Shown: one piece after another, positions 9,751 to 64,000 of the stretch
Layout of the letters: each line of letters starts with the position of its first letter
How positions within the stretch are numbered: the stretch's first letter is position 1
Origin: Alloscardovia omnicolens DSM 21503
GTDB taxonomy: Bacteria; Actinomycetota; Actinomycetes; Actinomycetales; Bifidobacteriaceae
Length of the DNA: 64,000 nucleotides
NCBI RefSeq assembly: GCF_000420505.1
Contig: NZ_ATVB01000004.1
Coordinates: forward strand, 1-64,000
Direction of reading: 5' to 3'
Program-made: the position numbers and the translations under genes
Notes under the pieces: generated by a model
Told to the model about the DNA's origin: nothing
Seen by the model: the letters and a program-made list of their open reading frames with translations, nothing else
The model's database searches: none

Positions 9751-10984
9751 GGGCACGATCACCTTCTGATTGCTTCATAAAATCCTCTAAAGAGGGTACA
9801 TTGCTCATACTCATACTATTTGCACGCAACTTCTCAACATCAATAAAATGAACAAAAGATGATTTCTCAAAAAATTCTTCCGGAACATCATTTTTTGCTG
9901 CTACGGTAATAAATACCTGAGGAAGATGCGATGCAAAAGCCATAATATGCGCACGCCGTTCATTATCGAGCTGAGCAAAAACATCATCCAAAACAAGCAG
10001 GGGAGAGCTAGCTGTTTTTTCAGTAAGCACCTCGCATAAAGCCATTTTGAGGGCTAAAGCCAAACTCCACATTTCACCATTCGACGCGTAATCCTTGGCA
10101 TCCATACTGTTGAGCATAAAAGCTATATCGTCGCGGTGGGGTCCAATAAGATTACGGGCTTGAGCCACTTCACCTTCAAATAAACGCTGATAATGCGCAA
10201 TAATTGCATCATACGCAGCTTTTTTATCGCTAAACTGGTTCAGCTCATCATACGAAGGAATATACTGTAGCTGAGCTGTATGCTGTTTGCCCGCTAGCTG
10301 AGCATGAATCCTGGTAAAAACAGGAGATAATATATCTACTGTTTGCTGGCGAGCTTGGGTAATATCTATACCGAGATTAACCAGTTGATCTGTCCAAATC
10401 TCTAAGCTCGTAAAAATATGCGTAAAATCTACGCCAGCTCCACCAGCGTTCATGGTGGCGCGCAGCTGAGCCACATTTTTCAGTAAAGCAGCACGCTGTT
10501 TAGCAATGTGATTATATTGCTGAACTTTCTCGTAATAGCCAGAAACAAGGAAAACAGCTGCAGCATCGAGAAAATGACGTCTTATACTTGGCTCTGCAGA
10601 AATAAGTTTTTGATCTTCTGGAGCAAAGGTAACGCTCGGTATATCTCCCACAATATCGCGTAAATACTGGGATTTTCCGCCATTAATACGCGCTCTGTGC
10701 CCTCCTCGAGAAGATAAAGTAAGAGCATATTGTGTTGATTCTTCGCTATTTTTAGAAAAAAGAACATTCGCACGGATATGAGCAGAGACTTGTCCAGCTT
10801 GAATCAGTGGTTTTGCTGTATGTGTGCGATGACTCATACCAGTGGAGAGAAATTCCACTGCCTCCACAATATTCGTTTTTCCTACGCCATTATTGCCATA
10901 AAAAATCGTAATCCCAGGAGCACAGTCAATAATGCAGTGCTCCCAGGAACGATAATGATCTAAAGCAAGTTTAGAAATATACAT
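9743..10984 (-). CDS. recF: DNA replication and repair protein RecF
   Basis: This is an SMC-like ATPase that works with RecO and RecR to load RecA at gapped DNA. At 413 residues it has the usual length. Walker A is GNNGVGKT (30-37). GPHRDDI and the ABC-like Walker B region LLVLDDVFAQLDNERR are in the C-terminal third. It starts 10 bp after dnaN, and its stop codon overlaps the DUF721 start, so dnaN-recF-DUF721 are probably co-transcribed. Confidence 0.97.
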   Translation of the reverse strand: MYISKLALDHYRSWEHCIIDCAPGITIFYGNNGVGKTNIVEAVEFLSTGMSHRTHTAKPLIQAGQVSAHIRANVLFSKNSEESTQYALTLSSRGGHRARINGGKSQYLRDIVGDIPSVTFAPEDQKLISAEPSIRRHFLDAAAVFLVSGYYEKVQQYNHIAKQRAALLKNVAQLRATMNAGGAGVDFTHIFTSLEIWTDQLVNLGIDITQARQQTVDILSPVFTRIHAQLAGKQHTAQLQYIPSYDELNQFSDKKAAYDAIIAHYQRLFEGEVAQARNLIGPHRDDIAFMLNSMDAKDYASNGEMWSLALALKMALCEVLTEKTASSPLLVLDDVFAQLDNERRAHIMAFASHLPQVFITVAAKNDVPEEFFEKSSFVHFIDVEKLRANSMSMSNVPSLEDFMKQSEGDRAHA

Positions 10985-10994
10985 TAATCAAGAA

Positions 10995-12119
10995 CTAATC
11001 AATAAAGCGCATTGGAACGAGCAAATAACGATAATCTAAAGATTCATCGCCATCAATATCTTGTTGTCCGTTGAATTCTACTGCACGAGCAGCATTGACC
11101 ATTTTCATACGCACATACGGTTCATCAATAGCGTTTAATCCTTCTTTCAAATAGGCAGGATTAAAAGCAACTGTAATTGCTTCGCCATCGAGTTGAGCAT
11201 CAATAACTTCGTGAGCCTGGGATTCATCTGCAGAACCTGCAGAAAGTTGCACTTCATTATTGCTAAATACCATGCGGATTGGAGCATTCTTTTCTGCTAC
11301 TAAAGCAACACGAGTAATTGCACTAATTAATTCGCTGCGATTAATAACGGCATGAATAGGATATTCATCCACAAACAGACCATCAACAGCAGGGAACTCA
11401 CCATCAATAAGCTGAGCAGTGGACTGACGTCCTGCATTAGAGAAGCTCAATAATGTTGATTTCTCTGAATCGTAACCCATAACCACATTGCTGGAAGTAT
11501 CAATGCTACGCGAAATATCTTTGATAACCGCGCCATCAATCAAAATAGTGCCCTCAAAATCAGGGTTTGATGGGGTCCAGTTGAAGCTTGCACGAGCCAA
11601 ACGGAAACGATCGGTAGAGGTGAGCACAACTTTTTCGCCATCAATAGTCATGCGAATGCCCTTAAGAACCACACGATTTTCCTCGTGAGCAATAGCAACT
11701 GCTGCTTTTGCAATTGCATGAGAGAAAGTATCTGCATCCACCTGACCTAAATCTTGAGGAACTTCTGGCAAAGCAGGGTAGTCTTCATATGGCATTAACT
11801 GCAAAGAGAACTTAGATTTTCCACCAGAAATAGACAAACGAGAGTTTGTAGTTTCCAAGGAAATAGTGCCTTGAGGCAAAGCCTTAGCAATATCTGCTAA
11901 CAGCTTACCTAGCACAACAACAGTTCCATCTTCGTCCACAGAAGCCTCTACATGATCGCGTGCAGACTTTTCATAGTCAAAAGTGGAGAAAGAGAGTTCT
12001 CCGTCATGCGCATCAAGCTTAATACCCGATAAAATAGGCACTGCAGGACGAGCAGGAAGTATGCGTGTAGCCCAAGCAACAGCATCAGCAAAAGCTGCAG
12101 AATCAACTTCAATTTTCAT
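10995..12119 (-). CDS. dnaN: DNA polymerase III sliding clamp (beta subunit)
   Basis: This is the ring-shaped processivity clamp of DNA polymerase III. Its 374 residues fit the three-domain clamp fold. It starts MKIEVDSAAFADAVAWATRI and ends with YRYLLVPMRFID, a normal clamp C-terminus carrying the MPMR-like protein-binding pocket. It is the first gene after the dnaA-dnaN origin spacer. Confidence 0.97.
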   Translation of the reverse strand: MKIEVDSAAFADAVAWATRILPARPAVPILSGIKLDAHDGELSFSTFDYEKSARDHVEASVDEDGTVVVLGKLLADIAKALPQGTISLETTNSRLSISGGKSKFSLQLMPYEDYPALPEVPQDLGQVDADTFSHAIAKAAVAIAHEENRVVLKGIRMTIDGEKVVLTSTDRFRLARASFNWTPSNPDFEGTILIDGAVIKDISRSIDTSSNVVMGYDSEKSTLLSFSNAGRQSTAQLIDGEFPAVDGLFVDEYPIHAVINRSELISAITRVALVAEKNAPIRMVFSNNEVQLSAGSADESQAHEVIDAQLDGEAITVAFNPAYLKEGLNAIDEPYVRMKMVNAARAVEFNGQQDIDGDESLDYRYLLVPMRFID

Positions 12120-12204
12120 AATGTCTCCTACGCTAAAAATCTAAAATCCTATTGTACAGATTTTTTCGCGACGAAGAGAGCTTGATTTTTTCTGCTGCAG
12201 ATTA

Positions 12205-12480
12205 TTACGACGATTAAGTATAAAGATATAGATAGTAGTAATAATAAGGGCTGTGGATACTGTGGATAACTGCTCGTAACTGCTATTTTCCACGCCTTGC
12301 AAGCATTCTTTTGTTGTGGATAACTTAAGAAATGTATGTGGATAAGTAGGGTAGTTATGCACATCGTCCGGATAACCAAAAAATTATCCACATTTTCATA
12401 TTTCTTATAAACGGCTTATTCACGGCTTATCCACCCATCTTTGCGCATAATGTGGATAGTATTGTGGATAACTTTTGTAT
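12205..12480. other. Origin of replication, DnaA-box cluster between dnaA and dnaN
   Basis: This spacer holds five perfect DnaA boxes (TTATCCACA or its complement) at 12261-12269, 12315-12323, 12337-12345, 12384-12392 and 12463-12471. Single-mismatch boxes lie at 12252-12260, 12427-12435 and 12451-12459. An AT-rich stretch at about 12205-12250 beside the boxes could be the unwinding element. No gene is present between dnaN and dnaA (12120-12624). The position beside dnaA and the strand switch of gene direction nearby support an oriC role. Confidence 0.85.
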
Positions 12481-12624
12481 ATATTTCTTTTCCATCGGCG
12501 TGGCGCGAAGCTTAAAATCCTTTTGCCAGACGGATTCTGCTGAAAACGTGAATAGTTGATGCGAAAAGCAGGCAGCTTCATCTAGCTTCAGATATAGTCT
12601 GCGCTGGGCACAATAAAGAACAAT

Positions 12625-14205
12625 TTATTCAGCAAAAGTGCGATTTTGCTTGAGCTGATTAGTCAGTTTTGTTACAGCAGTATATGTTTCTTGCTGCTCT
12701 TGCATTTCTGAAGAAATCTTACGGCATGCGTGCATAACTGTAGAATGATCGCGACCGCCAAAAGTAGCGCCAATATCCACCAAAGACATAGATGTTAATT
12801 CGCGCGATAAATACATAGCCATCTGACGAGCAGCAGCTACATTTTTTGTGCGTGACGAACCAACAATATCCTCAAAAGTGAGCTTATAATATTGCGCCAC
12901 AAAGCTAATAATATTTGTTGGAGTAATCTCCACAGTTGAATTCGTAAAGTCTTTTAATGTCTGCTCAGCTAAGCTCTTCGTAATAGTTTGATTACTCAAA
13001 CTTGCCATAGCAGAAATACGGGTGAGCGCGCCCTCAAGCACACGCACATTTTCCGTGACCTTCTCAGCAATCAAGTTCAACACATCCATAGGAATATCAA
13101 TATGTTGAGCCTTAGCTTTCATGCGCAAAATAGCCACGCGCAACTCGTGAGAAGGAGGATCAATACTTACAGGCAATCCTTGGCTAAATCGAGAAATCAA
13201 GCGGTCTGGCAAACCCTTCAAATTTTTTGGAGGAACATCGGATGCCAAAACAATTTGCTTGCCCTGTTCATACAACTCATTAAAAGTATTAAAGAAAGCC
13301 TCCACAGTGGTATCGCGACCAGCAATAAACTGCACATCATCGACGAGCAGAATATCTACACCACGATAGCGGCGGTTAAATTCCACCATTTCTGCGCGAC
13401 GGCTGCTTGCATTATTACCTAAAGCAATAACCAATTCATTCGTAAATTCCTCAGAATTCGTGTAGCGCACCTTCAAATTTGGATTAATCAGCAAAGCCTG
13501 ATTACCAATAGCATTAAGTAAATGAGTTTTACCTAAACCAGATCCTCCATAAATAAACAGAGGATTATATTCCATACCAGGACGCTCAGCCGTTGCAAAA
13601 GCAATACTTTTAGCAAACTGATTCGATTCTCCAGGAACGAAGTTATCGAAAATAGCATTTTTATTGAGATGGGTAACTGCATCGCGCGTATTTGCTGGGG
13701 TATCCATCATAGCGCTCGATACAATATCTGGCTGCACAGCAGCAGGGACAGGAGATTCATCTGCTACAGGCGTTGGAACAGAAGAATGTTGAGATACCTG
13801 TTCGTGATGCACAGGAGCTGTTCTCTCTGGTGCAGCTGAAGGAGTGACTGGTTTAGTGACTGGAGGAGCTGTGACTGTATTATTCACTGGAGAGGTGTGT
13901 GCCGCTGGTGAAGCAGGCGTTGCTTCATTTTGCTCTAAAATATGCGGATCGATTTGCACAACATAGGTCATAGGCTGACCAGTAACCTGCGAAAAAATAC
14001 TGGTTAATGCTTTATGAAGCTTTTTCTCTACTACTGTGCGGGTAGATTCACTAGATACAGTGAGCACAATCATAGTGCCGAAAATATTTGTGGCATGAAT
14101 ATCGCTAAGACATGCCATCTCGCGTAGGGTTAATTCCAGAGGTTGATCAAGCAAGAGTTGGTACGACTGATTCCAGACTTCAGCAGCATCCATCATATCT
14201 GCCAT
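12625..14205 (-). CDS. dnaA: Chromosomal replication initiator protein DnaA
   Basis: This is the AAA+ initiator that binds DnaA boxes and opens the origin. I chose the ATG at 14205 (MADMMDAAEVWNQ) because GAAGGAGG precedes it at good spacing; an in-frame start 21 codons upstream lacks this. The protein has 526 residues. It has N-terminal domain I, a Pro/Thr/Ala-rich linker (about 95-165), Walker A GGSGLGKT (about 220-227), Walker B ILLVDDVQF, and the DNA-binding signature GGRDHSTVMHACRKI near the C-terminus. DnaA boxes lie on both sides of the gene, so autoregulation is likely. Confidence 0.97.
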   Translation of the reverse strand: MADMMDAAEVWNQSYQLLLDQPLELTLREMACLSDIHATNIFGTMIVLTVSSESTRTVVEKKLHKALTSIFSQVTGQPMTYVVQIDPHILEQNEATPASPAAHTSPVNNTVTAPPVTKPVTPSAAPERTAPVHHEQVSQHSSVPTPVADESPVPAAVQPDIVSSAMMDTPANTRDAVTHLNKNAIFDNFVPGESNQFAKSIAFATAERPGMEYNPLFIYGGSGLGKTHLLNAIGNQALLINPNLKVRYTNSEEFTNELVIALGNNASSRRAEMVEFNRRYRGVDILLVDDVQFIAGRDTTVEAFFNTFNELYEQGKQIVLASDVPPKNLKGLPDRLISRFSQGLPVSIDPPSHELRVAILRMKAKAQHIDIPMDVLNLIAEKVTENVRVLEGALTRISAMASLSNQTITKSLAEQTLKDFTNSTVEITPTNIISFVAQYYKLTFEDIVGSSRTKNVAAARQMAMYLSRELTSMSLVDIGATFGGRDHSTVMHACRKISSEMQEQQETYTAVTKLTNQLKQNRTFAE

Positions 14206-50233: not shown

Positions 50234-51610
50234 ATGGCCGCTTTTAATCCCCAACTGTCTAACGCTACATCCGTGAAATCTGAAGAAGCTGATCGCGAAA
50301 GCGTAGAGCCTAAAACTCTGAACATCACTGCTGCTACGGCTAATCCGCGTCTGTTTACCTTGCCATGGTCGTTACCGTTGGCCAAATGGTCGCAAGATCT
50401 TATTGTTAACCTACCTCGAGGTATATCTCGTCACGTGGTACGTTTTGTGCGCGCTGGCGATCATGTGAACGCCATGAAGGAAATTTCTTACCGTTCAGCG
50501 GTTAAAGAGTATGAGATGTTGCGTAAGCTCGAAAAAATTGACGTGCCGAGCGTAAAACCAATTGGTGTGGTTGCTGGACGTCGCAATACAAAGGGCGAGC
50601 CACTTGAAGCTATTTTGATTACAGAACAGCTGAAGTTCTCGCTACCGTACCGCGCTTTATTCGCCCGCAATTTACGCGCAGATACTGCAGACCGTTTGAT
50701 TGACGCTTTAGTTGTGCTCCTCGTTCGCCTGCATTTACAGGGCTTCTACTGGGGTGATGTATCGTTATCGAATGTTTTATTCCTGCGCGATGCAGATAAT
50801 TTTTCGGCTGTGCTCGTAGATGCAGAAACAGGTGCGCTGCATGAGAACTTAACTGATGGTCAGCGCGAATACGATATTGACTTAGCTCGCACCAATATTA
50901 TTGGTGAGTTGATGGATTTGCATTCCGGCAATTTGTTGCCAAGTGAAGTTGATGAGATTGAAGTGGGTAACCGCCTCGTAGACCGTTACCACGAGCTGTG
51001 GGACGCTCTTACTGGTATGTCATCCTTCGCTCCTGACGAGATGTGGAAGATTGAACAGCGCGTGAACAAGCTCAACGACTTGGGCTTTGACGTAGACGAG
51101 TTAGAAATAACCACAACAGATGACGGTAACCGCATTAATGTGCGTCCTCGCGTGGTGGATGCTGGTTATGCATCTCGTAAACTTTTGCGCTTGACCGGCT
51201 TGGATGTGCAAGAAAATCAGGCGCGCCGATTACTCAACGATATTGAAGCCTACCGCACGTCCACATGGCGTCAGGGTGAAGATATGGAAATTGTGGCTAC
51301 AGATTGGATGCGTGAGGTTTTCGAGCCTACGGTACGCGCTATTCCATCGGAATACCGTTACCAAATTGAGCCTGCTCAGTTCTTCCATGAAGTGCTGACC
51401 CATCGTTGGATTATGGCTGAAAAGATTGGCCATGACGTATCTACTCCTGAAGCAACTGAAGATTATATTGCCAGCTCGCTGGGTGAGTACAAGATGGATC
51501 CGAAAGCTATTCAATCTATTCTTGATGAAGCTGATTCAGGCGTTATGGATGATTATGATGATTACCATGCTGAGGATGACCCAGATGCCGCAGTATGGGC
51601 GAGTATGTAG
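50234..51610 (+). CDS. DUF4032 domain protein with kinase-like N-terminus
   Basis: This is a 458-residue protein. Residues about 40-240 resemble the lipopolysaccharide-kinase branch of the protein-kinase fold (ISYRSAVKEYEMLRKL, LHLQGFYWGDVSLSNVLFL, VLVDAETGAL). DUF4032 follows in the C-terminal half. These proteins are conserved in actinobacteria and their substrate is unknown. AAGGAG precedes the ATG at good spacing. The gene ends at a strong terminator shared with rlmB. Confidence 0.85.
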   Translation: MAAFNPQLSNATSVKSEEADRESVEPKTLNITAATANPRLFTLPWSLPLAKWSQDLIVNLPRGISRHVVRFVRAGDHVNAMKEISYRSAVKEYEMLRKLEKIDVPSVKPIGVVAGRRNTKGEPLEAILITEQLKFSLPYRALFARNLRADTADRLIDALVVLLVRLHLQGFYWGDVSLSNVLFLRDADNFSAVLVDAETGALHENLTDGQREYDIDLARTNIIGELMDLHSGNLLPSEVDEIEVGNRLVDRYHELWDALTGMSSFAPDEMWKIEQRVNKLNDLGFDVDELEITTTDDGNRINVRPRVVDAGYASRKLLRLTGLDVQENQARRLLNDIEAYRTSTWRQGEDMEIVATDWMREVFEPTVRAIPSEYRYQIEPAQFFHEVLTHRWIMAEKIGHDVSTPEATEDYIASSLGEYKMDPKAIQSILDEADSGVMDDYDDYHAEDDPDAAVWASM

Positions 51611-52731: not shown

Positions 52732-52760
52732 TTGACATAAGATGTCTGATGTCTTATGAT
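52732..52760 (+). promoter_or_regulatory. Promoter and operator of the sialic-acid transporter operon
   Basis: TTGACA (52732-52737), a 17-bp spacer and TATGAT (52755-52760) form a strong sigma-70-type promoter. Its spacer contains TGTCTGATGTCT (52743-52754), and CATAAGA...TCTTATG arms flank it. The same 12-mer lies in the repressor promoter at 62806-62817 in reverse orientation. A repressor bound here would block RNA polymerase. Confidence 0.85.
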
Positions 52761-52865: not shown

Positions 52866-54452
52866 ATGAAGTGCGGGAAGTTAGGAAAGTTGGTCGCAGG
52901 TATTGCAGTAGCCACATTAATGCTTTCAGGCTGTGGTGCGGGTAACAATGGAAATTCAAGCTCGTCATCGAAGAATGCTCCTGCAGCCAGTACGGTTGTT
53001 CCAGGAACAATTACTACACAGATTGCATATGCAGGACGAAACTTTGATCCTGGTACCACATCATTAGCCCTGCCTATGGCTGGAAACTGGCATGTTATTG
53101 AAGCGTTATACACCCGTAAAATGAACGACTTTAGTCTCGTTTCCGGTCTTGCTAAGGGCGACCCGAAGATGGTGTCGGAAACCGAATACGAAGTGACTCT
53201 GCGCGATGGTGCGAAATTCTCTGATGGTAACGCAGTAACAGCAAATGATGTGAAGTTCTCTTTTGAACGTATGATGAAAGAGGGAAGTTTGTTTGCGCCA
53301 ATGCTTTCATTCATTGAAAGTATTGAAACAAAGGGAGATAATACCCTCGTTTTCCATTTGAATAAGCCTTTTACGCTGGTTAAAGATCGATTTAGCTTAG
53401 TTGGTGTTGTTCCGGCATCAATGTCTGATGAAGATCTTCAGAAAATGCCAGTTGGTTCTGGTCCATACAAGTACACAAATATTACGGATCAACAAGTAAC
53501 TTTTGAAAAGAATGCCAACTATAACGGTGAATGGCAAGCTCCATCCGAGAAGATGGTATGGAACTCGAATGTAGACGATACTGCGCGTGTGACTGCAATG
53601 CAGTCAGGAAAAAATGATGTTATGGAAAATGTGCCAGTTAAGGCATTTCAGACATTAAAGACTTCTGGATCAGAAATTCAGCAAGTGCAGTCCTTTAACC
53701 AGGCCTTCATAATGTTTAATACGAAGAAAGCCCCATTCGATAAGAAGGAAGTGCGTCAAGCTGTTTTCTATGGTATCGATACAGAGGCGTTAATTAAGAA
53801 TCAAATGGGCGGTCAAGCAAAGCCCGTTACTGGATTCCTGCCAGAGAGCTTCAAATATTACAAGAAGGGTAAGAACGTATACACCTACAATGTAGAGAAA
53901 GCAAAGAAACTCATTAAGGGTGCTGGAGTACAGGCTGGAACTACATTTACTCTCTATACCACAGATCAAACATGGATTACTGAGCTAGCTCCACAGATTA
54001 AGAATAATCTTGAAGCATTGGGCTTTAAGGTTGATATTCAGTCTATGAAGTCAGCAGCTCTCTTCCCGAATGTTACGGATAAAGAAGATGCGGATTACTC
54101 TATGGTCTTAGCTCCAGGTGATCCTACAGTGTTTGGTAACGACCCAGATGTTCTGCTCAACTGGTGGTTCGGAGATAATGCATGGACTAAGACCCGCACA
54201 TTCTGGAAGGGCTCTGAAGCATATAACAAGCTCCATGAATACATGGATAAAGCAGTTGTAGCTGAATCAGACAGTGAGCGAACCGAAGCTTGGAATAATG
54301 CGATGGATATTATTTCTGAAGAAGTTCCTCTTTACCCACTCTTCCACCGTACGCTATCTACTGCATCTCGTAAGGGAGTGTTCAAGGAGTATAAGGCAGC
54401 CGGTACCACGGGTCTATTCTTCTTAGGAGCAAAGCTGAGTAAGAAGTCTTAA
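52866..54452 (+). CDS. Peptide-type ABC transporter substrate-binding lipoprotein (sialic acid, by context)
   Basis: This is a 528-residue family-5 binding protein. The lipobox LSGC puts the lipidated cysteine at residue 23 after a signal peptide. The family-typical YEVTLRDGAKFSDGNAVTANDV and PVGSGPYKYTN are present. GAAGGAG lies before the ATG. These proteins usually bind peptides, but SatA of Haemophilus ducreyi and NanB of Bifidobacterium breve bind sialic acid, and this one is the first gene of a nan operon. Neu5Ac or a sialylated sugar is the likely ligand. Confidence 0.85.
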   Translation: MKCGKLGKLVAGIAVATLMLSGCGAGNNGNSSSSSKNAPAASTVVPGTITTQIAYAGRNFDPGTTSLALPMAGNWHVIEALYTRKMNDFSLVSGLAKGDPKMVSETEYEVTLRDGAKFSDGNAVTANDVKFSFERMMKEGSLFAPMLSFIESIETKGDNTLVFHLNKPFTLVKDRFSLVGVVPASMSDEDLQKMPVGSGPYKYTNITDQQVTFEKNANYNGEWQAPSEKMVWNSNVDDTARVTAMQSGKNDVMENVPVKAFQTLKTSGSEIQQVQSFNQAFIMFNTKKAPFDKKEVRQAVFYGIDTEALIKNQMGGQAKPVTGFLPESFKYYKKGKNVYTYNVEKAKKLIKGAGVQAGTTFTLYTTDQTWITELAPQIKNNLEALGFKVDIQSMKSAALFPNVTDKEDADYSMVLAPGDPTVFGNDPDVLLNWWFGDNAWTKTRTFWKGSEAYNKLHEYMDKAVVAESDSERTEAWNNAMDIISEEVPLYPLFHRTLSTASRKGVFKEYKAAGTTGLFFLGAKLSKKS

Positions 54453-54572: not shown

Positions 54573-55529
54573 ATGACAAACTTGCTGAGATTACTAGCAA
54601 AGAGGCTAGCATCCCTGCCGTTAGTGGCATTTGGTGTTGTATTTCTTGTTTTCTTCTTAATGTCATTTTCTCAATATGATCCGGCAACAGCCGCGTTGGG
54701 AGAGAATGCAACAGCAGAACAGTTAGAAGCATATCGTCACGAAGCAGGCTTTGATAAGCCATGGTATATTCGATTTTTTGTATACATCTGGAATATGCTT
54801 CATGGCAATTTGGGAACTTATGGTGTCAATAGAGAGTCTGTGGCTGGTCGAATTGCTCAAGCTTTTCCTATTACTCTGCAATTAACATTTATTGCGCTCT
54901 TAGTAGCTGTATTTTTCGCTATTCTTTTTGGTGTACTTGCAGCTCTTTTTCGCAATACATGGGTTGATCAAGTTATTCGAGTATTTTCTATTATTGCGAT
55001 TTCAACACCATCCTTCTGGTTGGGTGTTTTAATGATTTACGTTTTCCAAATTCGTTTGGGATGGCTTTTGGGTGCAGGAGATTTAGTCCCATTCTTTGTT
55101 GACCCTTTGGCATATTTGAACCGTATGGCAATGCCTGCAGTCTCTTTGGGACTTCCAGTAGCCGGTCAGCTTACACGAGTTATACGCACCTCAATGGTAG
55201 AAGAGCTTGACAAAGATTATGTGCGTACTGCTATTGGAGCGGGTATTGAAAAGGGAATAGTTGTTGCGCGAAACGTATTGCGCAATGCATTAATTACACC
55301 AATTACAGTACTCGGAATGAAGATTGGTTACCTCATGGGTGGTGCAATTGTTACCGAAGTTATTTTTACACTGCCGGGTATGGGAACCACACTTTTTGAA
55401 GGTATTAACGGAAATGAGCCAACTTTAGTGCAAGGTGTGGTGCTCGTAGTAGCACTATCCTTTGTAGTCATCAATATTGTTGTTGATTTGCTGTATGTGC
55501 TTATCAATCCTCGCATTAGGACGGTGTGA
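54573..55529 (+). CDS. ABC transporter permease (DppB-like)
   Basis: This is a 318-residue integral membrane subunit of the peptide-transporter class with about six helices. The start LLRLLAKRLASLPLVAFGVV and the permease loop RTAIGAGIEKGIVVARNVLRNA are typical. It follows the binding protein by 120 bp and precedes the fused permease-ATPase by 1 bp. Confidence 0.9.
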   Translation: MTNLLRLLAKRLASLPLVAFGVVFLVFFLMSFSQYDPATAALGENATAEQLEAYRHEAGFDKPWYIRFFVYIWNMLHGNLGTYGVNRESVAGRIAQAFPITLQLTFIALLVAVFFAILFGVLAALFRNTWVDQVIRVFSIIAISTPSFWLGVLMIYVFQIRLGWLLGAGDLVPFFVDPLAYLNRMAMPAVSLGLPVAGQLTRVIRTSMVEELDKDYVRTAIGAGIEKGIVVARNVLRNALITPITVLGMKIGYLMGGAIVTEVIFTLPGMGTTLFEGINGNEPTLVQGVVLVVALSFVVINIVVDLLYVLINPRIRTV

Positions 55530-55530
55530 C

Positions 55531-57669
55531 ATGCTATTTGGAAAGAAAGCAATTACTGACGCTGCATCGCAGCCAGGCGTGAAATTGCGTAGATTTGCAC
55601 ATCTTAAGCTCAGCACAAAACTAGCAGCACTATTTATGATTTTACTTATTGGTGTTGCAGTCTTAGCTCCCATTATTTCGCCTCATGATCCTCTTGCTAT
55701 TACCACTAGCTATTTGTCTCCGAACGCGAACAATCTATTCGGTACAGACAATTTAGGGCGAGACGTAATGAGTCGAGTCTTTTATGGAGCGCGTTATTCG
55801 CTGACTATTGGTCTGCTTGCCATTGCCTTTGCTCTTATTCTTGGAGCTCTTATTGGTGCAATTGCTGCAGTATCGCGCTCTTGGATTTCTGAAATTATTA
55901 TGCGCGTAGTTGACATCTTTATGTCTGTTCCAGGTATTGCATTGGCAGCAGTTTTTGTATCTATCTTAGGACAGTCGATGTTCGGCATCATTATTGCTAT
56001 TGGTATTTTATATGTGCCTCAAATTACACGAGTGGTTCGGGCAAATATTATTAGCGAGTATGGTCAAGATTATGTGCGTGCTGTAATTGTTTCCGGTGCG
56101 CGTGCTCCATGGATTTTACTCAAGCATGTTACGCGCAATATTGCTGCACCTGTTATGGTATTTACCACGCTATCGGTGGCTGATGCAATCGTCTTTGAAG
56201 CATCGTTATCCTTTATTAACTTGGGCTTCCCAGAGCCTACACCAACATGGGGTAATACTCTATCTTCAGCAAAACAAGGCGTTATTTTCGGTTATTGGTG
56301 GCAGGCATTATATCCAGGTTTGGCCATTATGATTACCGTATTAAGCTTGAATATCTTGTCTGAAGGTATTACAGATGCTATCGTATCTGCTCCAAGTGCA
56401 CCTATGGTCAAGAGTTCTGTTGATGCGGCAAAAGCACGTAAAGAAGACCTACTTCTGACAGACCCTGTTGCTGCATATGCGGCACAACACGATACCCTTG
56501 TTAACTCGTTGGCACAGCTTAAAGAGGCTGAAGCTCAACGTACAGATCGCTTTATTCCGCGTGGACCTGAATCGGGTGAGCCAGTCATTGAAGTAAAAGA
56601 CTTGTGTATCTCTTTCCCTCGCCATGGCGATGTGAATGTTGTTGACCACGTATCGTTCTACGTACGCCCTGGTGAAACCATGGGACTTGTAGGTGAATCT
56701 GGATGCGGCAAATCTATTACCTCCTTGGCCATTATGGGTCTGCTTGATAAGCGTGCAACAATTTCCGGTGAAATTAATTTCCATGGTAAGAACTTAGTTG
56801 ATATAAGCCCTAAGGAGCATAATGCTCTGCGGGGTCACGAAATTGCGATGATTTATCAAGATGCTCTCAGTTCTCTCAATCCATCCATGCTTATTAAGAA
56901 TCAAATGGCTCAGCTTACGAAGCGTGGTGGAAAACGTACGGCCGAAGAGCTACTTGAGCTTGTTGGATTAGATCCAAAGCGAGTGCTGGAATCTTATCCG
57001 CATGAGCTTTCAGGTGGTCAGCGGCAGCGTGTGCTGATTGCTATGGCATTAACTCGTGATCCTAAACTGGTTATTGCCGATGAGCCAACCACCGCACTCG
57101 ATGTTACAGTGCAGCGTCAAGTTATTGACCTACTCAATGATTTGCGTGAAAAGCTTGGATTTGCCATGATTTTTGTTTCACATGACTTGGCATTAGTTGC
57201 GAAGGTGGCTCATAAGATTACGGTTATGTATGCCGGTCAGGTAGTTGAGCAGGGCTCGACTCAGGAAATTCTGACTGATCCACGACATGAATACACTCGT
57301 GGTTTGCTGGGATCTGTTATCTCTATTGAAGCAGGTCAAACTCCGCTACATCAAGTACCTGGAACTGTTCCTAGCCCGAAGGACTTCCCAGATGGTGATC
57401 GTTTTGCTCCTCGTTCATCGAGACCTTATGACGCTCTCGATGAGCATCCGGTCATGATTGAAATTCCAGATACTCACCATCGCTATGCTGTGCGCCCATC
57501 TCTTGCAGATTTGGACGTTCACCATCAGCCAGTTGAGAATCCTGGAGAAATAATTCATCTGATTAATCCATCTCTTAATAATGCTTTTGACGATGGAGAA
57601 AAAGTCCCAGGTGACACATCCAATGTTGTAGTTACTGCTGACGCAACTCAGGAGGCAGACAATGAGTAA
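55531..57669 (+). CDS. Fused ABC permease and ATP-binding protein (DppC-DppD)
   Basis: This is a protein of about 712 residues joining two subunits. Residues about 1-300 form a DppC-type permease (NNLFGTDNLGRDVMSRVFYG, the loop AVIVSGARAPWILLKHVTRN). Residues about 350-620 form an ATPase with Walker A GESGCGKS, signature LSGGQRQRVLIAMAL and Walker B LVIADEPTTALD. The C-terminal tail (about 90 residues) is oligopeptide-type. The ATG at 55531 lies 1 bp after the previous stop. Such fusions occur in bifidobacterial transporters. It overlaps the next gene by eight bases. Confidence 0.9.
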   Translation: MLFGKKAITDAASQPGVKLRRFAHLKLSTKLAALFMILLIGVAVLAPIISPHDPLAITTSYLSPNANNLFGTDNLGRDVMSRVFYGARYSLTIGLLAIAFALILGALIGAIAAVSRSWISEIIMRVVDIFMSVPGIALAAVFVSILGQSMFGIIIAIGILYVPQITRVVRANIISEYGQDYVRAVIVSGARAPWILLKHVTRNIAAPVMVFTTLSVADAIVFEASLSFINLGFPEPTPTWGNTLSSAKQGVIFGYWWQALYPGLAIMITVLSLNILSEGITDAIVSAPSAPMVKSSVDAAKARKEDLLLTDPVAAYAAQHDTLVNSLAQLKEAEAQRTDRFIPRGPESGEPVIEVKDLCISFPRHGDVNVVDHVSFYVRPGETMGLVGESGCGKSITSLAIMGLLDKRATISGEINFHGKNLVDISPKEHNALRGHEIAMIYQDALSSLNPSMLIKNQMAQLTKRGGKRTAEELLELVGLDPKRVLESYPHELSGGQRQRVLIAMALTRDPKLVIADEPTTALDVTVQRQVIDLLNDLREKLGFAMIFVSHDLALVAKVAHKITVMYAGQVVEQGSTQEILTDPRHEYTRGLLGSVISIEAGQTPLHQVPGTVPSPKDFPDGDRFAPRSSRPYDALDEHPVMIEIPDTHHRYAVRPSLADLDVHHQPVENPGEIIHLINPSLNNAFDDGEKVPGDTSNVVVTADATQEADNE

Positions 57670-58489
57670 AGAACTGTTGAATACTCCCATTATTGAGCTG
57701 AAGAACATTAAAGTAGTGTTCAAAACTCGCGCAGGTGGTATTTTTCACCCTCATATGGTTACTGCTGTTAATGACGTGAGTTTGCAACTTATGCCAGGGA
57801 AAACCATTGGTTTGGTTGGGGAATCCGGATGTGGAAAATCCACCACAGCTAATGTGCTTTGTGGTTTGCAGATGGCTACAGAGGGCACAGTGCTATTTAA
57901 GGGTATTGATGTTACTAAGCGCACTGCTGATCAACGTAAGAAAATTGGGCGCGTGGTATCAGTTGTTTTTCAAGATCCAGCAACTGCTCTTAACGCTCGT
58001 ATGAAAGTTATTGATCAACTTATTGATCCTCTAGCTGTGCATAAGCTTGGAACGAAAGAAAAGCGCATAAATCGTGCGATGGAACTTATCCACATGGTTG
58101 GTTTGCCAACTTCTGTGCTGGATGCTCTTCCTGGTCAACTCTCAGGTGGTCAGCGTCAGCGAGTAGCTATCGCACGAGCTTTGAGCTTAGAGCCGGATGT
58201 AATCATCGCAGATGAACCTACATCTGCTCTCGATGTGTCTGTGCGAGCGCAGATTTTGAATCTTCTAACACATTTGAGAGAAGAACTTGGCTTAGCAATG
58301 GTGTTTATTAGCCACGATATTCAAACAGTACGCTACGTATCCGATGAAATCGTGGTGATGAATGGCGGCAGCATCGTAGAACGTGGCCCAGCACAAGAAG
58401 TGTTTTACAATCCGCAACATCCTTATACGCGAACTCTTCTTGCTGCAGCACCATCATTGTTGCATCCTACTGAAGAAGAATGCGCATAA
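57662..58489 (+). CDS. ABC transporter ATP-binding protein (DppF-like)
   Basis: This is a 275-residue second ATPase of the transporter. Walker A is GESGCGKST, the signature is LSGGQRQRVAIARAL, and Walker B is VIIADEPTSALD. The family C-terminal segment FYNPQHPYTRTLL is present. The start overlaps the previous gene (ATG within the last codons), so the two are translationally coupled. It completes the import system. Confidence 0.9.
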   Translation: MSKELLNTPIIELKNIKVVFKTRAGGIFHPHMVTAVNDVSLQLMPGKTIGLVGESGCGKSTTANVLCGLQMATEGTVLFKGIDVTKRTADQRKKIGRVVSVVFQDPATALNARMKVIDQLIDPLAVHKLGTKEKRINRAMELIHMVGLPTSVLDALPGQLSGGQRQRVAIARALSLEPDVIIADEPTSALDVSVRAQILNLLTHLREELGLAMVFISHDIQTVRYVSDEIVVMNGGSIVERGPAQEVFYNPQHPYTRTLLAAAPSLLHPTEEECA

Positions 58490-58646: not shown

Positions 58647-59615
58647 ATGGATTCTCGTTTTCGTGGCGTTTTCCCGCCAGTAGTTACAGCCTTAGATGCA
58701 GATGGTAATCTTGATGAAACCTCTTTTGAACGAAGTATTAATCGCATGATTGACGCTGGAGTCAATGGACTCTTTGTATTGGGATCTTCGGGAGAAGTAG
58801 CTTTCAGTACTGATGAACGCCGCCGGCAGATTATTGAAGCAGCTGTGCGCATTATTGACCATCGAGTACCCCTGCTGGTGGGGTGTATTGATACAGAAAC
58901 AAGACGAGTTATAGAACATGCTCGAGTAGCTCAAGCTTTGGGGGCAGATGCCATTGTAGCTACAGCACCATTTTATGCACTTGGTGGTCAAGCAGAAATA
59001 GAACGGCATTTCCGTCTCATTCATGAAGCTGTAGATTTGCCATTATTTGCATATGATATTCCGGTATGTGTGCACACCAAACTGCAGGCAGATATGCTTA
59101 TTCGTTTAGGGCTTGATGGCGTGCTTACGGGTGTTAAAGATTCTTCCAACGATGATGTTTCTTTCCGTTTCCTTGTTGATAGTAATAAGAGAGCAGGGCA
59201 TCCTCTGGTCTTGTTGACAGGGCAGGAGGTCGTTGTTGACGGGGCTTATATGGCTGGTGCGGATGGATCAGTTCCTGGTCTTGCTAATGTTGAGGCAAGT
59301 GCTTATGTGCGTATGTGGCAAGCATATGAGAATGGTGATTGGAGCACTGTTCGTAAGGAACAAGATTTCCTTGCAGACCTTATGCGTATTGTTCTCGTAC
59401 CACAAGGCGTTCAAGGTTATGCAGCGGGAGTAGGAGCATTCAAAACAGCCATGGCTTTGCTGGGAATTTTTGATACGAATCAAATGCCAGAGCCTGTCTT
59501 ACCGCTGCGTGGCGAAAATGTTGAGCGCATTGCAAGCGTGTTGAAACAAGCAGGACTCGAACTTAAGCGTAATGTCGAAGAGGTAAGTGCTAGCGCGCAC
59601 ATTCATACTCTCTAA
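58647..59615 (+). CDS. nanA: N-acetylneuraminate lyase (DHDPS/NAL family)
   Basis: This is a 322-residue TIM-barrel aldolase. The family motif GSSGEVAFSTDER, the tyrosine in FAYDIPVCVH and the Schiff-base lysine in GVLTGVKDSSNDD are present. By itself the family also includes dihydrodipicolinate synthase, but the nan transporter upstream and nagB-nagA downstream point to cleavage of Neu5Ac into ManNAc and pyruvate. GAGGAGGAATAG precedes the ATG. The gene leads the enzyme part of the operon. Confidence 0.85.
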   Translation: MDSRFRGVFPPVVTALDADGNLDETSFERSINRMIDAGVNGLFVLGSSGEVAFSTDERRRQIIEAAVRIIDHRVPLLVGCIDTETRRVIEHARVAQALGADAIVATAPFYALGGQAEIERHFRLIHEAVDLPLFAYDIPVCVHTKLQADMLIRLGLDGVLTGVKDSSNDDVSFRFLVDSNKRAGHPLVLLTGQEVVVDGAYMAGADGSVPGLANVEASAYVRMWQAYENGDWSTVRKEQDFLADLMRIVLVPQGVQGYAAGVGAFKTAMALLGIFDTNQMPEPVLPLRGENVERIASVLKQAGLELKRNVEEVSASAHIHTL

Positions 59616-59635: not shown

Positions 59636-60424
59636 ATGGCAGAAGTTCTTATTGTAAAATCACAAGAAGAAGCTGGAGAAATCTACGCACGTGCTGTGGT
59701 CACCGCGCTCGCTCGGAATCCTCAGCTTGTTCTAGGACTAGCTACGGGGTCAACACCACATGCCGCGTACCAAGCATTAGCTCGCCGTGTTAAAGAAGAT
59801 AATCTTGATGTTTCCCGAGTTCAGGGTTTTGCTTTAGATGAATATGTGGGTCTCGATCCAGAACATCCAGAATCGTATCATAGCGTTATTTTCAGAGAAG
59901 TAGTGGAACCTGTAGGTCTCAATCCTGATCTTATTCATGTGCCACACAGTGATATTGACACTCTTCCTCATGCAGGTGCAGACTACGATGCTGCAATCGA
60001 AGCAGCGTGTGGAGTAGATATTCAGATTCTAGGCATCGGAACAGATGGTCATATTGGGTTTAATGAGCCAGGAAGCTCACTTGCTTCTCCTACACGTATG
60101 AAAACCTTAGCCGAACAGACTCGTCTCGATAATGCTCGCTTTTTCAATAATGATGTAAATCAAGTGCCTATGCATTGCATTACACAAGGTGTGGGAACCA
60201 TAATGAAGGCAAAGCATCTTGTGCTGTTGGCATTTGGGAAATCAAAAGCTCAGGCGGTAGCAGCAAGTATTGAGGGGCCTATTACTGCTATGTGCCCAGC
60301 ATCGGCATTACAAATGCATCCACATGCTACTTTTATTGTGGATGAAGCAGCTGCGAGCGAATTGAAACAGGCTGAATATTACCAGTGGGTAGCGCGTCAT
60401 AAACCGCAATGGCAGGAGTTGTAG
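59636..60424 (+). CDS. nagB: Glucosamine-6-phosphate deaminase
   Basis: This 262-residue enzyme turns glucosamine-6-phosphate into fructose-6-phosphate and ammonia. The N-terminal LVLGLATGSTPHAAYQAL, VQGFALDEYVGL and GIGTDGHIGFNEPGSS motifs are those of NagB. AAGGACGAGAG lies before the ATG. It sits 20 bp after nanA and 60 bp before nagA. Confidence 0.93.
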   Translation: MAEVLIVKSQEEAGEIYARAVVTALARNPQLVLGLATGSTPHAAYQALARRVKEDNLDVSRVQGFALDEYVGLDPEHPESYHSVIFREVVEPVGLNPDLIHVPHSDIDTLPHAGADYDAAIEAACGVDIQILGIGTDGHIGFNEPGSSLASPTRMKTLAEQTRLDNARFFNNDVNQVPMHCITQGVGTIMKAKHLVLLAFGKSKAQAVAASIEGPITAMCPASALQMHPHATFIVDEAAASELKQAEYYQWVARHKPQWQEL

Positions 60425-60484: not shown

Positions 60485-61801
60485 ATGAGTGCATTAATAG
60501 ATAAAGTTCCTGATTCATGGGAGAAACGTCGTGTTATAGCTCGACGCCTCGTAGGGCAGATGAGCTCCACAAGTTCTGCTTCGGCTTGTATTACTGTTTT
60601 ACGTCATGCCACGCTTGTTGATGCTTTGGGCACTATGAACAATGGTTGGCTGGTGATGCGTAATGGCAGTATCTATCGCACAGGTGCAGGTGATTATGCT
60701 CTTGAAGCGGTTACGAATGAGCTGGAGAGCGTGCAGAAAGAGCAGGACTACAAGAACACTATTAGTGTAATTGATGTTCAGGGACATATTGTTTGCCCCG
60801 GTTTCATTGACATTCATTCTCATGGCGGTTGGGGTAGTGCTTTTGACGACGGTGAAGATGCCATTGCTATGGCACGTAGTTTCCATCTTCTTCATGGCAC
60901 TACTCGGCAGGTACTTTCGTTAATTACGAATCCGTGGAATGATTTACTGCACACTATTCGTGTTGCTTCTCAGGTTGCATTAAGTCGCGTAGACATCTTA
61001 GGACTTCATCTTGAAGGGCCTTTCCTTTCACCTCAACATAAGGGTGCTCACGATGAAGAGTGCTTACTTGACCCTACACAAGAACGAGTAGAGGCAATAC
61101 TTGAAGCAAGCCAAACAACACTACGCCAGATTACGATTGCTCCTGAGCTAGAACATGGCATCAGTGCTATCGAAGGTTTTGCGCGCGCAGGAGTTCGCTC
61201 TGCTGTGGGGCATTGCGATGCTGACTATAATCAGACTCGTGAAGCTTTCGACCATGGTGCACGTATTTTGACGCACATGTTTAATGCCATGAACGGGATA
61301 TCTCACAGAGCGCCTGGGCCTATTGCTGCAGCAGCAGAAGACGAATCAGTTATTGCTGAGATAATTGCTGATGGATTTCATGTTCATACCCCAGCTTTAC
61401 GCATAGCTGCCCAGCTTGTTCCACACCGACTTGCTCTTGTAACAGATTCCATGTCTGCTGCAGGTTGTCCAGATGGTTCATATACCTTGGGTAATTTAGA
61501 CGTAGATGTGAAAGATGGACATGCTCGGCTTGTGTCTAATGGAGCTATAGCTGGTTCAACGTTAAATCTTGAAGAAGCAGTTCAGCGCATGGTTTTTGAA
61601 GTTGGATTGAGTGTGCAAGATGCTATAGAAGCTGCTACCTTTACACCGGCACGTGCTGTGGGGGTAGACCAGCCTCAGGAGATCACACAGGCTCCTCTTG
61701 GTTTATTGCGTGAGGGATATGCGGCTGATGCTTTGATTTTAGATAAAGATTCCTTAAGCGTGCGCGACGTGTGGTGCTCAGGCGTTCGTGTAGATATTTA
61801 A
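60485..61801 (+). CDS. nagA: N-acetylglucosamine-6-phosphate deacetylase
   Basis: This 438-residue amidohydrolase removes acetate from GlcNAc-6-phosphate. The metal site is seen in PGFIDIHSHGGWG, HLEGPFLSPQHKGAHDEE, GHCDADYNQ and LTHMFNAMNGISHR, and the catalytic aspartate is in LVTDSMSAAG. TAAGGA precedes the ATG. The N-terminus carries an extension of about 30 residues. The gene ends at a strong hairpin facing the repressor gene. Confidence 0.92.
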   Translation: MSALIDKVPDSWEKRRVIARRLVGQMSSTSSASACITVLRHATLVDALGTMNNGWLVMRNGSIYRTGAGDYALEAVTNELESVQKEQDYKNTISVIDVQGHIVCPGFIDIHSHGGWGSAFDDGEDAIAMARSFHLLHGTTRQVLSLITNPWNDLLHTIRVASQVALSRVDILGLHLEGPFLSPQHKGAHDEECLLDPTQERVEAILEASQTTLRQITIAPELEHGISAIEGFARAGVRSAVGHCDADYNQTREAFDHGARILTHMFNAMNGISHRAPGPIAAAAEDESVIAEIIADGFHVHTPALRIAAQLVPHRLALVTDSMSAAGCPDGSYTLGNLDVDVKDGHARLVSNGAIAGSTLNLEEAVQRMVFEVGLSVQDAIEAATFTPARAVGVDQPQEITQAPLGLLREGYAADALILDKDSLSVRDVWCSGVRVDI

Positions 61802-61889: not shown

Positions 61890-62684
61890 TTATGAATGAA
61901 GACGTGTACGAACTATGTGCTCAATCGGTTGATAATGCGAATCGACTGCTTCGCGATATGCTTCGATGTCTCCATTGACCGCGGCATTAAGCATATCTAT
62001 ATGGGCTTGAGCTGAATGCATAAGATCAGCAGTAATTTCCGCGTTTAACGCCGGAACTACTGCCATATGCACAAGCCATAAGCTACGCGATAGTTGTTTG
62101 GCCACGGCGTTATCAAGCGAATCCATCAGTCCTTGGTGAAAAGCTATGTCTTCTTCAAGAAAAGTATGTCCATCTTGAGCTTTTGCTGTAATATTCTCTG
62201 TTACAGTACGTAAACGAGCAATATCGTCGGTAGATAAACTCTGAACGTGGTTTACTACTTCAGGAGCTAATCCTTGATCTAAAATTTTACGTAGCTCAAT
62301 AATATCGGCTAAATTTCGGTAGCTGTCGTCGCCGGACATCATAGCCTTAAAAGAGAGAGCTTCGACAAGTGGGTCAAATGATAGAGAACCTACAAAAGTG
62401 CCTTTGCCATGAACCACAGATACAATATCCAATGCTTCAAGTTTACGTATCGCCTCGCGTACTGAGGACCGTGCTGCCTTTAAATGCTCACACAGCTCAG
62501 ACTCAGTGGGGAGAGGGTCTCCAATCTGTAAGCCTTCACGAAGGATATAGGATTTTATTGCATCCATTGTTGTATCTACGCGTCTGCGTGTAGAGGATGG
62601 CTCGGAAATACGTGGGATTAAAGCATCAGTTAAACCCTCTACACTCTGAATTTCCAATGTAGATTTTTTGAAATCAGGTGCCAT
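61890..62684 (-). CDS. nanR: GntR/FadR-type repressor (FCD domain), NanR-like
   Basis: This regulator has about 264 residues. The ATG at 62684 (MAPDFKKSTLEIQSV) has AAGGAGG six bases upstream; a start six codons earlier would overlap it. The winged helix-turn-helix reads LQIGDPLPTESELCEHLKA and SSVREAIRKLEALDIV. The C-terminal FCD ligand-binding domain has the metal-type residues Asp and His (DIAFHQGLMDSL, SAQAHIDMLNA). By position and family it is the NanR-type repressor of the operon. It is divergent from the DUF4862 gene, with its own operator in between. Confidence 0.88.
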   Translation of the reverse strand: MAPDFKKSTLEIQSVEGLTDALIPRISEPSSTRRRVDTTMDAIKSYILREGLQIGDPLPTESELCEHLKAARSSVREAIRKLEALDIVSVVHGKGTFVGSLSFDPLVEALSFKAMMSGDDSYRNLADIIELRKILDQGLAPEVVNHVQSLSTDDIARLRTVTENITAKAQDGHTFLEEDIAFHQGLMDSLDNAVAKQLSRSLWLVHMAVVPALNAEITADLMHSAQAHIDMLNAAVNGDIEAYREAVDSHYQPIEHIVRTRLHS

Positions 62685-62789
62685 AATACCCTCCTTCTTC
62701 ATCTGCGCCGTTGCATGAACGAATTATGCCTCTGACTCCAACACTTACTTACTAGTATATACATCGAGCGAAGCAATGGTAATACACGT

Positions 62790-62832
62790 ATTCTATCAAA
62801 TTATCAGACATCAGACAAATCTATGATATACT
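62790..62832. promoter_or_regulatory. Divergent promoters and operator of nanR and the DUF4862 gene
   Basis: On the minus strand TTGTCT (62818-62813), 17 bp and TAGAAT (62795-62790) form the repressor promoter. On the plus strand TATACT (62827-62832) with a weak -35 (CAGACA) may serve DUF4862. AGACATCAGACA (62806-62817), the complement of TGTCTGATGTCT, lies inside both. This supports autoregulation and control of the divergent operon. Confidence 0.82.
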
Positions 62833-62886
62833 GGGTACAACATGTTGAGTTGTCTCATCGAAAAGTAGCACAAGGGAGTGTTCTTA

Positions 62887-63822
62887 ATGGTAGGAATAAC
62901 AACCGTCGCGGGAGTATACGCCTCACAGCCTTCAGATAAGGCGAAACGTGAAGAATATTATGCTTTGCTTGGTCATGAAGAGTGGATTAGTGGAGCAGAG
63001 CTCCCTTTTCCTGGCGAGCTTGCAGATGCGAGTGAGAGAAAATGGCTTGCTGCTCATTTACCAACACATTGGCATCACAACAATGTCACTCTTATTCCTG
63101 GCACGATGCAGAGTCTCGCTGTGAACCCAAGTTTTGGTCTAGCAAGCCCCTCATCATCAGGTAGACGTGAAGCTCTCACATATTTAAGAAATGCTTTTTA
63201 CGCTCTTGACGATTTTGCGCAGCTTCGGGGAAGCCAAGATATCCGTTATGTGCAGATTCATTCAGCTCCTTCAAAAATTGCTGAAGTTGATGCAATGAAA
63301 GCATCTTTAGAAGAAATAAATAGGTGGGAGCATAACAGTATTCGCCTAGTTATTGAGCACTGCGACCGTTACAAAGAGGTGCAATCGCCAGAAAAGGGTT
63401 TCCTAACGTTGGAAGAAGAAATTGAATTAGCGCGGGAATTTAATGTAGGTATCACCATTAATTGGGGGCGCTCTGTTATTGAAGATAGAAATCCTTGGAC
63501 GGCTAAGCGGCATATTGAAGAATGTGCGTGTGCAGGTGTTCTTACGGGACTGATGTTTTCTGGTGCAGGACCTCAAGCATCACAGTATGGATACGAGTGG
63601 ATTGATGGGCATCTTCCTTTGAGTACTTTCGAGAAAACTAGCTTAATGACACCTGAACATATCGAAGCTTGTGTTACTAGTGCATGTGAGAGTAAGCAGT
63701 GGTTAGAGCACGGGTATGGCGGAGTGAAAGTATGTGTTCCTGCCAATGCAGACCTAGCAACGCGATTAAGTTATATGTCAACAACGTACGAGGTTATGAA
63801 CAATGTTTTGTGCTCACGATGA
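62887..63822 (+). CDS. DUF4862 family protein, putative sugar-acid pathway enzyme
   Basis: This is a protein of about 311 residues starting MVGITTVAGVY, with AAGGGAG upstream. Segments such as VQIHSAPSK, LVIEHCDRY, VGITINWGRSVIED and GLMFSGAGPQ show a TIM-barrel-like pattern with conserved His, Glu, Asp and Asn on successive strands. This suggests a metal-using sugar isomerase or epimerase fold. The family has no known function to me. The 20-bp overlap with the kinase gene and the repressor operator upstream place it in sialic-acid or ManNAc use. It might take the place of a known step, for example epimerisation, but this is inference. Confidence 0.75.
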   Translation: MVGITTVAGVYASQPSDKAKREEYYALLGHEEWISGAELPFPGELADASERKWLAAHLPTHWHHNNVTLIPGTMQSLAVNPSFGLASPSSSGRREALTYLRNAFYALDDFAQLRGSQDIRYVQIHSAPSKIAEVDAMKASLEEINRWEHNSIRLVIEHCDRYKEVQSPEKGFLTLEEEIELAREFNVGITINWGRSVIEDRNPWTAKRHIEECACAGVLTGLMFSGAGPQASQYGYEWIDGHLPLSTFEKTSLMTPEHIEACVTSACESKQWLEHGYGGVKVCVPANADLATRLSYMSTTYEVMNNVLCSR

Positions 63823-64000
63823 TTATGATTTACATCTTGATGATGTTGTATCTGACCGTTTCTATATAGCTGTGGATATTGGTGGAACAAAAATCGCTTC
63901 GGCTATTGTGCGTATGAGTTACGGGACATATGAGGTCATAGATAAAAATCGTATGCCCACATGCGCGCAGAAGGGCGGTGATGATGTTTTGTATCGCCTC
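63803..64000 (+). CDS. nanK: ROK-family sugar kinase (ManNAc kinase, by context), cut by the window end
   Basis: Only the first 66 codons are visible. FYIAVDIGGTKIASAIV is the ATP-binding DxGGTK motif of ROK kinases, so this is an enzyme and not a regulator like the ROK protein at 208. No DNA-binding domain precedes it. The start overlaps the DUF4862 gene by 20 bp. Context suggests phosphorylation of N-acetylmannosamine; glucose or GlcNAc cannot be excluded. The 20-residue N-terminal extension before the motif is acidic. Confidence 0.8.
   Translation, partial: MFCAHDDYDLHLDDVVSDRFYIAVDIGGTKIASAIVRMSYGTYEVIDKNRMPTCAQKGGDDVLYRL

Follow-up and report, generated by a model that had tools for sequence, protein, structure and literature searches.

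The first gene of a sialic-acid (nan) operon on the 64,000-nucleotide stretch of Alloscardovia omnicolens DNA analyzed here (the window) encodes a DUF4862 protein that occurs in the Bifidobacteriaceae almost exactly where an orthologous N-acetylneuraminate lyase (NanA) occurs, and that is very probably an enzyme of N-acetylneuraminate (Neu5Ac) catabolism acting at or before the lyase. The gene, its operon, the predicted fold class, and the co-occurrence with NanA are established. More tentatively, at slightly under an even chance, DUF4862 is proposed to be a Neu5Ac ring-opener that feeds NanA in place of YhcH, a reading in which we infer the reaction, the substrate form, and the catalytic residues. 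In bacteria that lack YhcH, DUF4862 is a candidate for how NanA comes by its open-chain substrate; the proposed function is already known in another family, and it would be new to the DUF4862 family and to this fold. The features used below, with the basis of each call, were as follows (window positions unless contig positions are named).

52743..52754, minus strand: further copy of the putative NanR operator, preceding the ABC-transporter operon
52866..54452, plus strand: ABC transporter solute-binding protein, at the head of the facing nan operon (ORF)
54573..58489, plus strand: ABC transporter permease, permease/ATPase fusion, and ATPase (ORFs; synteny)
58647..59615, plus strand: NanA-type N-acetylneuraminate lyase of the DHDPS superfamily (PF00701, E 2e-47)
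59636..60424, plus strand: NagB glucosamine-6-phosphate deaminase (Pfam search)
60485..61801, plus strand: NagA-type deacetylase (amidohydrolase match, place in the cluster)
61890..62702, minus strand: GntR/FCD repressor, probable NanR (Pfam; best NCBIfam match NanR, below cut-off)
62805..62832, plus strand: sigma-70-like promoter CAGACA-16-TATACT (consensus match only; best match before DUF4862)
62806..62817, plus strand: putative NanR operator AGACATCAGACA, a 12-mer overlapping the -35 box of that promoter
62872..62878, plus strand: Shine-Dalgarno-like AAGGGAG, 8 bases 5' of the DUF4862 ATG (from sequence)
62887..63822, plus strand: DUF4862 gene, 311 aa (ORF with ribosome-binding site, PF16154 match, AlphaFold2/Foldseek barrel)
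63803..64000, plus strand: ROK-family kinase, probable NanK, continuing to contig position 64840 outside the window (ORF, Pfam)
Contig positions 64901-65575, outside the window: nanE, directly after the kinase (PF04131, E 8.5e-59)
Contig positions 65640-67913, outside the window: BNR/laminin-G sialidase

The DUF4862 product matched PF16154 over profile positions 2-291 of 291 with an E value of 9.6e-95 and a score of 317.8 bits (curated cut-off, 25 bits), which places the whole domain in this family. PF16154 was its only Pfam match, neither PF04074 (DUF386) nor PF04131 (NanE) being detected, and no NCBIfam model matched. A PDB search with the DUF4862 profile returned no sequence relatives, no viral relatives were found (fold matches among viruses were confined to distant AP endonucleases and further barrels), and the RUNX matches that the single sequence gave (E 0.01-0.2) were discarded as chance. 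In the family tree, the window protein grouped with Alloscardovia. The interval first read from the sequence, 62887-64000, includes 198 bp of the kinase gene besides DUF4862; the gene itself, its 20-bp overlap with the kinase (ATG at 63803), and the opposed GntR repressor were all confirmed by ORF, ribosome-binding site, Pfam, and coordinate data.

The contig (146 kb) extends past the window, and the operon runs in the order DUF4862, ROK kinase, nanE, sialidase. Beyond the divergent repressor, a second operon comprises the genes for binding protein, permease, permease-ATPase, ATPase, nanA, nagB, and nagA, a gene order that matches nanB-C-D-F-A of Bifidobacterium breve (PMC4252021). With nanA, nanK, nanE, nagA, nagB, a transporter, and a regulator all inside 16 kb, the locus qualifies as a nan cluster. 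The transporter permease and ATPase are fused in one ORF of 730 aa (55477-57669), likewise in the related nan clusters seen. Elsewhere in the window, a DUF4032 protein (50234-51610) with a weak lipopolysaccharide-kinase-like match adjoins an ABC ATPase.

The repressor operator that had been read into the DUF4862 promoter gained support as a putative NanR-type site. The 12-mer AGACATCAGACA has one further copy in the window, before the transporter operon, so that both outward promoters carry it, and in four Alloscardovia genomes the promoter of DUF4862 retains it. Allowing one mismatch, 0.32 matches were expected by chance, and two were reached in 3 of 100 shuffles. A palindrome, CAACATGTTG, was dropped as an operator, the other promoters being without it.

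The sequence-only reading saw no ManNAc-6-phosphate epimerase in the window and considered DUF4862 as a new pathway enzyme, acting perhaps on Neu5Ac forms or on ManNAc. The first statement is literally true, but only because the window ends before nanE; as nanE is present, the second gene after DUF4862, the protein was rejected as a substitute for that epimerase, and a new pathway enzyme acting on Neu5Ac forms is the probable part of the proposal. A broader version, in which DUF4862 is a metal-dependent ketol isomerase or epimerase of ManNAc, ManNAc-6-phosphate, or GlcNAc-6-phosphate, draws on its place at the head of a nanK-nanE operon and on a fold in common with the L-rhamnose and xylose isomerases, but a nanE directly after the kinase already argues against it, as do the distribution and strand-end residues described below.

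Among 189 Bifidobacteriaceae genomes, a NanA orthologue (at least 75% identity) was found in 37, and sialic-clade DUF4862 (E <1e-93) was found in the same 37 of 37 and in 1 of the 152 others. The tie to sialic-acid use is therefore far stronger than had been claimed from the sequence. The single exception is Scardovia wiggsiae, where DUF4862 is accompanied by a NanR-like repressor and neither NanA nor NanE was found; its locus is either a remnant or reflects another use of the DUF4862 protein. The companions of the DUF4862/NanR-like pair there are a GH31 glucosidase and an ABC transporter for sugars. Of 101 Bifidobacteriaceae genomes examined as a subset, nine carry nanE without an orthologous nanA, and none of the nine had sialic-clade DUF4862. 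Most of these nine have a ROK nanK adjoining nanE, and they perhaps use ManNAc rather than Neu5Ac; one of them has an AraC-type regulator after nanE. Since genomes with nanE and nanK but without nanA also lack DUF4862, the protein goes with the lyase and not with the kinase and epimerase of the ManNAc steps, which counts further against the isomerase/epimerase alternative.

A scan of GTDB species yielded 346 DUF4862-related stretches, and 80 loci were read, 49 of them non-bifidobacterial (including Actinomycetaceae, Corynebacterium, Cutibacterium, Streptomyces, and Kocuria). True NanE (E <1e-40) was present in 48 of these 49 genomes versus 34 of 396 Actinomycetota drawn at random, a draw used as background only because its sole DUF4862 carrier above the cut-off was the window genome. 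Genomes with DUF4862 but no nanE, which had been named as support for the epimerase idea, were thus almost absent from this set. The flanks of DUF4862 (up to 10 kb) held no nanA, nanE, or nanK in 41 of the 49 loci; with so many unlinked genes, the link to sialic acid must be more than operon inheritance. In 121 Corynebacterium genomes, DUF4862 occurred in 11 of the 24 with NanA (E <1e-100) and in 0 of the 97 others, at least one DUF4862/NanA pair lying more than 400 kb apart. The remaining 13 NanA-positive genomes lack DUF4862 genome-wide, and YhcH was not found near the nan genes in the NanA-positive Corynebacterium neighborhoods read; about half of these genomes thus show neither protein within those scopes, so that neither is essential. 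The Fisher values for co-occurrence (1e-38 and 2e-9) ignore shared descent and give scale only. Sialic-clade DUF4862 is nearly confined to genomes with sialic-acid genes, and the pathway link is a matter of observation. Accordingly, of the two findings that the sequence-only reading had jointly set against itself, nanE does follow the kinase, but DUF4862 in many genomes without sialic-acid genes was not seen. Two records, titled Sanguibacter keddieii and Xylanimonas cellulosilytica (genomes of 2.4-2.5 Mb), have DUF4862 neighborhoods almost identical to those of Schaalia records, and their titles may be wrong.

The gene-neighbor survey also supported the pathway tie through aldolases beside a second clade (see below), nan-cluster neighbors (including a complete nan cluster around DUF4862 on a Pseudoalteromonas chromid), and, in 13 loci, a NanT-type sialate:H+ symporter (NF003024, matched at E 1e-215 by one representative) directly before DUF4862, often with sialidases adjacent. 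These frequent NanT and sialidase neighbors, the strict tie to NanA, and the accessory character of DUF4862 in Corynebacterium would all be explained if the protein converted a modified or dehydrated sialic acid (e.g., 2,7-anhydro-Neu5Ac, Neu5Ac2en, a lactone, or an epimer) to Neu5Ac before NanA. We consider this rather unlikely, since presence in every NanA-positive Bifidobacteriaceae genome is wider than a rare substrate would lead one to expect, and since YjhC, the known enzyme acting on 2,7-anhydro-Neu5Ac and Neu5Ac2en, is a dehydrogenase-family protein (PMC7315737) whereas DUF4862 is an isomerase-type barrel.

The TIM-barrel, sugar-isomerase look of the protein was borne out by structure prediction. 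An AlphaFold2 model built with 51 relatives was a beta/alpha barrel with a mean pLDDT of 96.5, and the top PDB matches in Foldseek were all xylose-isomerase-like: L-rhamnose isomerase (E 1.7e-9, TM 0.64, ~11% identity), xylose isomerase, a D-tagatose 3-epimerase-like protein, and endonuclease IV. Weak matches to PF01261 were seen in 16 of 51 DUF4862 members. On this modeled fold, the protein can be assigned with confidence to the xylose-isomerase-like TIM barrel superfamily, from whose PF01261 members it differs by low identity and apparently by other strand-end residues. In this superfamily, strands 5 to 8 usually end in the metal ligands Glu, Asp, His, and Glu/Asp. The invariant residues that the DUF4862 model places at these strand ends are E157, N192, S225, and K281; three of the four ligand positions thus appear to be replaced, which suggests that the isomerase metal site may have been lost. 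Together with the gene order and distribution given above, this largely refutes an isomerase or epimerase of ManNAc, ManNAc-6-phosphate, or GlcNAc-6-phosphate, which we now hold to be quite improbable.

Thirteen residues are invariant through the distant clade (E38, E157, H158, D160, K170, E178, N192, R195, S196, S225, D240, H242, and K281), and judging from the sequence, the Lys and Arg residues among them (K170, R195, and K281) would suit a carboxylated sugar. Strict pairing with NanA could mark a non-enzymatic sialic-acid sensor or an activator of NanA, but strongly conserved polar residues, many of them at barrel strand ends, are typical of enzymes, and the NanR repressor already serves as a ligand sensor; such a role is very improbable. 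NanE (PF04131) is also a TIM barrel and shares the operon with DUF4862, but it belongs to a separate family, and both are present. The model is likewise distinct from the six-bladed kelch propeller of NanM. YihM of Escherichia coli, a xylose-isomerase-like barrel without an assigned function, was rejected as a family member, having no DUF4862 match and a negative profile comparison, and a DNA search with the Pseudoalteromonas DUF4862 gene for the E. coli PF16154 match found nothing.

A second DUF4862 clade (~30% identity, 99/96 tree support) was found beside aldolases in 6 of the 6 Bifidobacteriaceae cases seen. Two adjoin a NanA paralogue (42-45% identity); in the other four, the neighbor is an aldolase of the DHDPS family, after which come an MFS transporter and a ~380-aa BNR_2 hydrolase, a unit conserved across the four loci. 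The second-clade unit probably serves catabolism of another ulosonic acid, and its BNR_2 protein is possibly a sialidase-fold hydrolase of unusual specificity. What the two clades share is an aldolase of the N-acetylneuraminate-lyase superfamily and not a given sugar kinase, and the substrate of the aldolase is thereby indicated. The same neighborhoods fit the product side as well, and DUF4862 could act on another product of sialoglycan uptake, either a sugar released with Neu5Ac or, after the lyase, sugars derived from KDN or Neu5Gc. This is improbable, since the Neu5Ac cleavage product is already handled by NanK and NanE and since K170, R195, and K281 would favor a carboxylated substrate.

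The reading preferred here, that of a ring-opener, rests on comparison with YhcH (NanQ; DUF386, PF04074). NanA uses or prefers the open form of Neu5Ac, which accounts for less than 0.5% in solution and is supplied in E. coli by cytoplasmic YhcH (PMC8141875). YhcH, a cytoplasmic Neu5Ac anomerase, was formerly a nan-operon gene of no known function that tracked NanA and had relatives in other operons, and the same description applies to DUF4862, whose association with NanA is as would be expected of such an enzyme. The two are unrelated in sequence and fold, YhcH being a small Zn protein and DUF4862 a 311-aa TIM barrel. YhcH was counted at E <1e-25 (two matches of E 1e-6 and 6e-4 were left out) and was found in 0 of 44 DUF4862 genomes versus 17 of 33 NanE-positive Actinomycetota without DUF4862, an exclusion that is confounded with descent, all 17 falling in three other families. 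It is on the absence of YhcH from DUF4862 genomes and the need of NanA for the open form that DUF4862 is proposed as the replacement. The sialic-clade protein would be cytoplasmic and would act at or just before the lyase step, binding cyclic Neu5Ac and opening its pyranose ring as an anomerase ("openase"), and the open Neu5Ac so made would pass to NanA; in Actinomycetota it would stand in for the unrelated E. coli YhcH/NanQ. The sister clade may do the same job for other 2-keto-3-deoxy sugar acids, beside other aldolases of the NAL superfamily.

Ring opening is kept just short of an even chance because taxonomy confounds the exclusion, because about half of the NanA-positive corynebacteria show neither protein, and because we only infer the chemistry. 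We know of no xylose-isomerase-like barrel that acts as a pure anomerase. Three cases count against ring opening: Scardovia wiggsiae; a Pseudoalteromonas chromid, in which DUF4862 lies inside a complete nan cluster together with NanM, although NanM is periplasmic; and an Azospirillum second-clade member, which stands in a sugar-acid gene cluster with no such aldolase within 9 kb. The Pseudoalteromonas cluster also encodes, beside the separate NanM, an 812-aa sodium:solute symporter (locus positions 10916-13354) with a weak N-terminal NanM match. In its widest form the proposal makes DUF4862 a second class of cytoplasmic ring-opener for ulosonic acids, unrelated in structure to the first: a xylose-isomerase-like barrel without the isomerase metal site, each clade of which serves one NAL-superfamily aldolase. 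It would also be the accessory enzyme so far missing from accounts of how bifidobacteria and other Actinomycetota use sialic acid. This we regard as possible, though short of probable.

None of the papers searched uses the name DUF4862, and in an actinobacterial survey of sialic-acid genes, searched for unknown or isomerase-like members, no mention of such a gene was found (PMC8754123). The B. breve counterpart of DUF4862 is likely to be Bbr_0160 of strain UCC2003, which resembles it by gene order only, preceding a ROK kinase and nanE in the same way; this "conserved hypothetical protein" of the sialic-acid locus was 2.8-fold up in vivo (PMC6045583).
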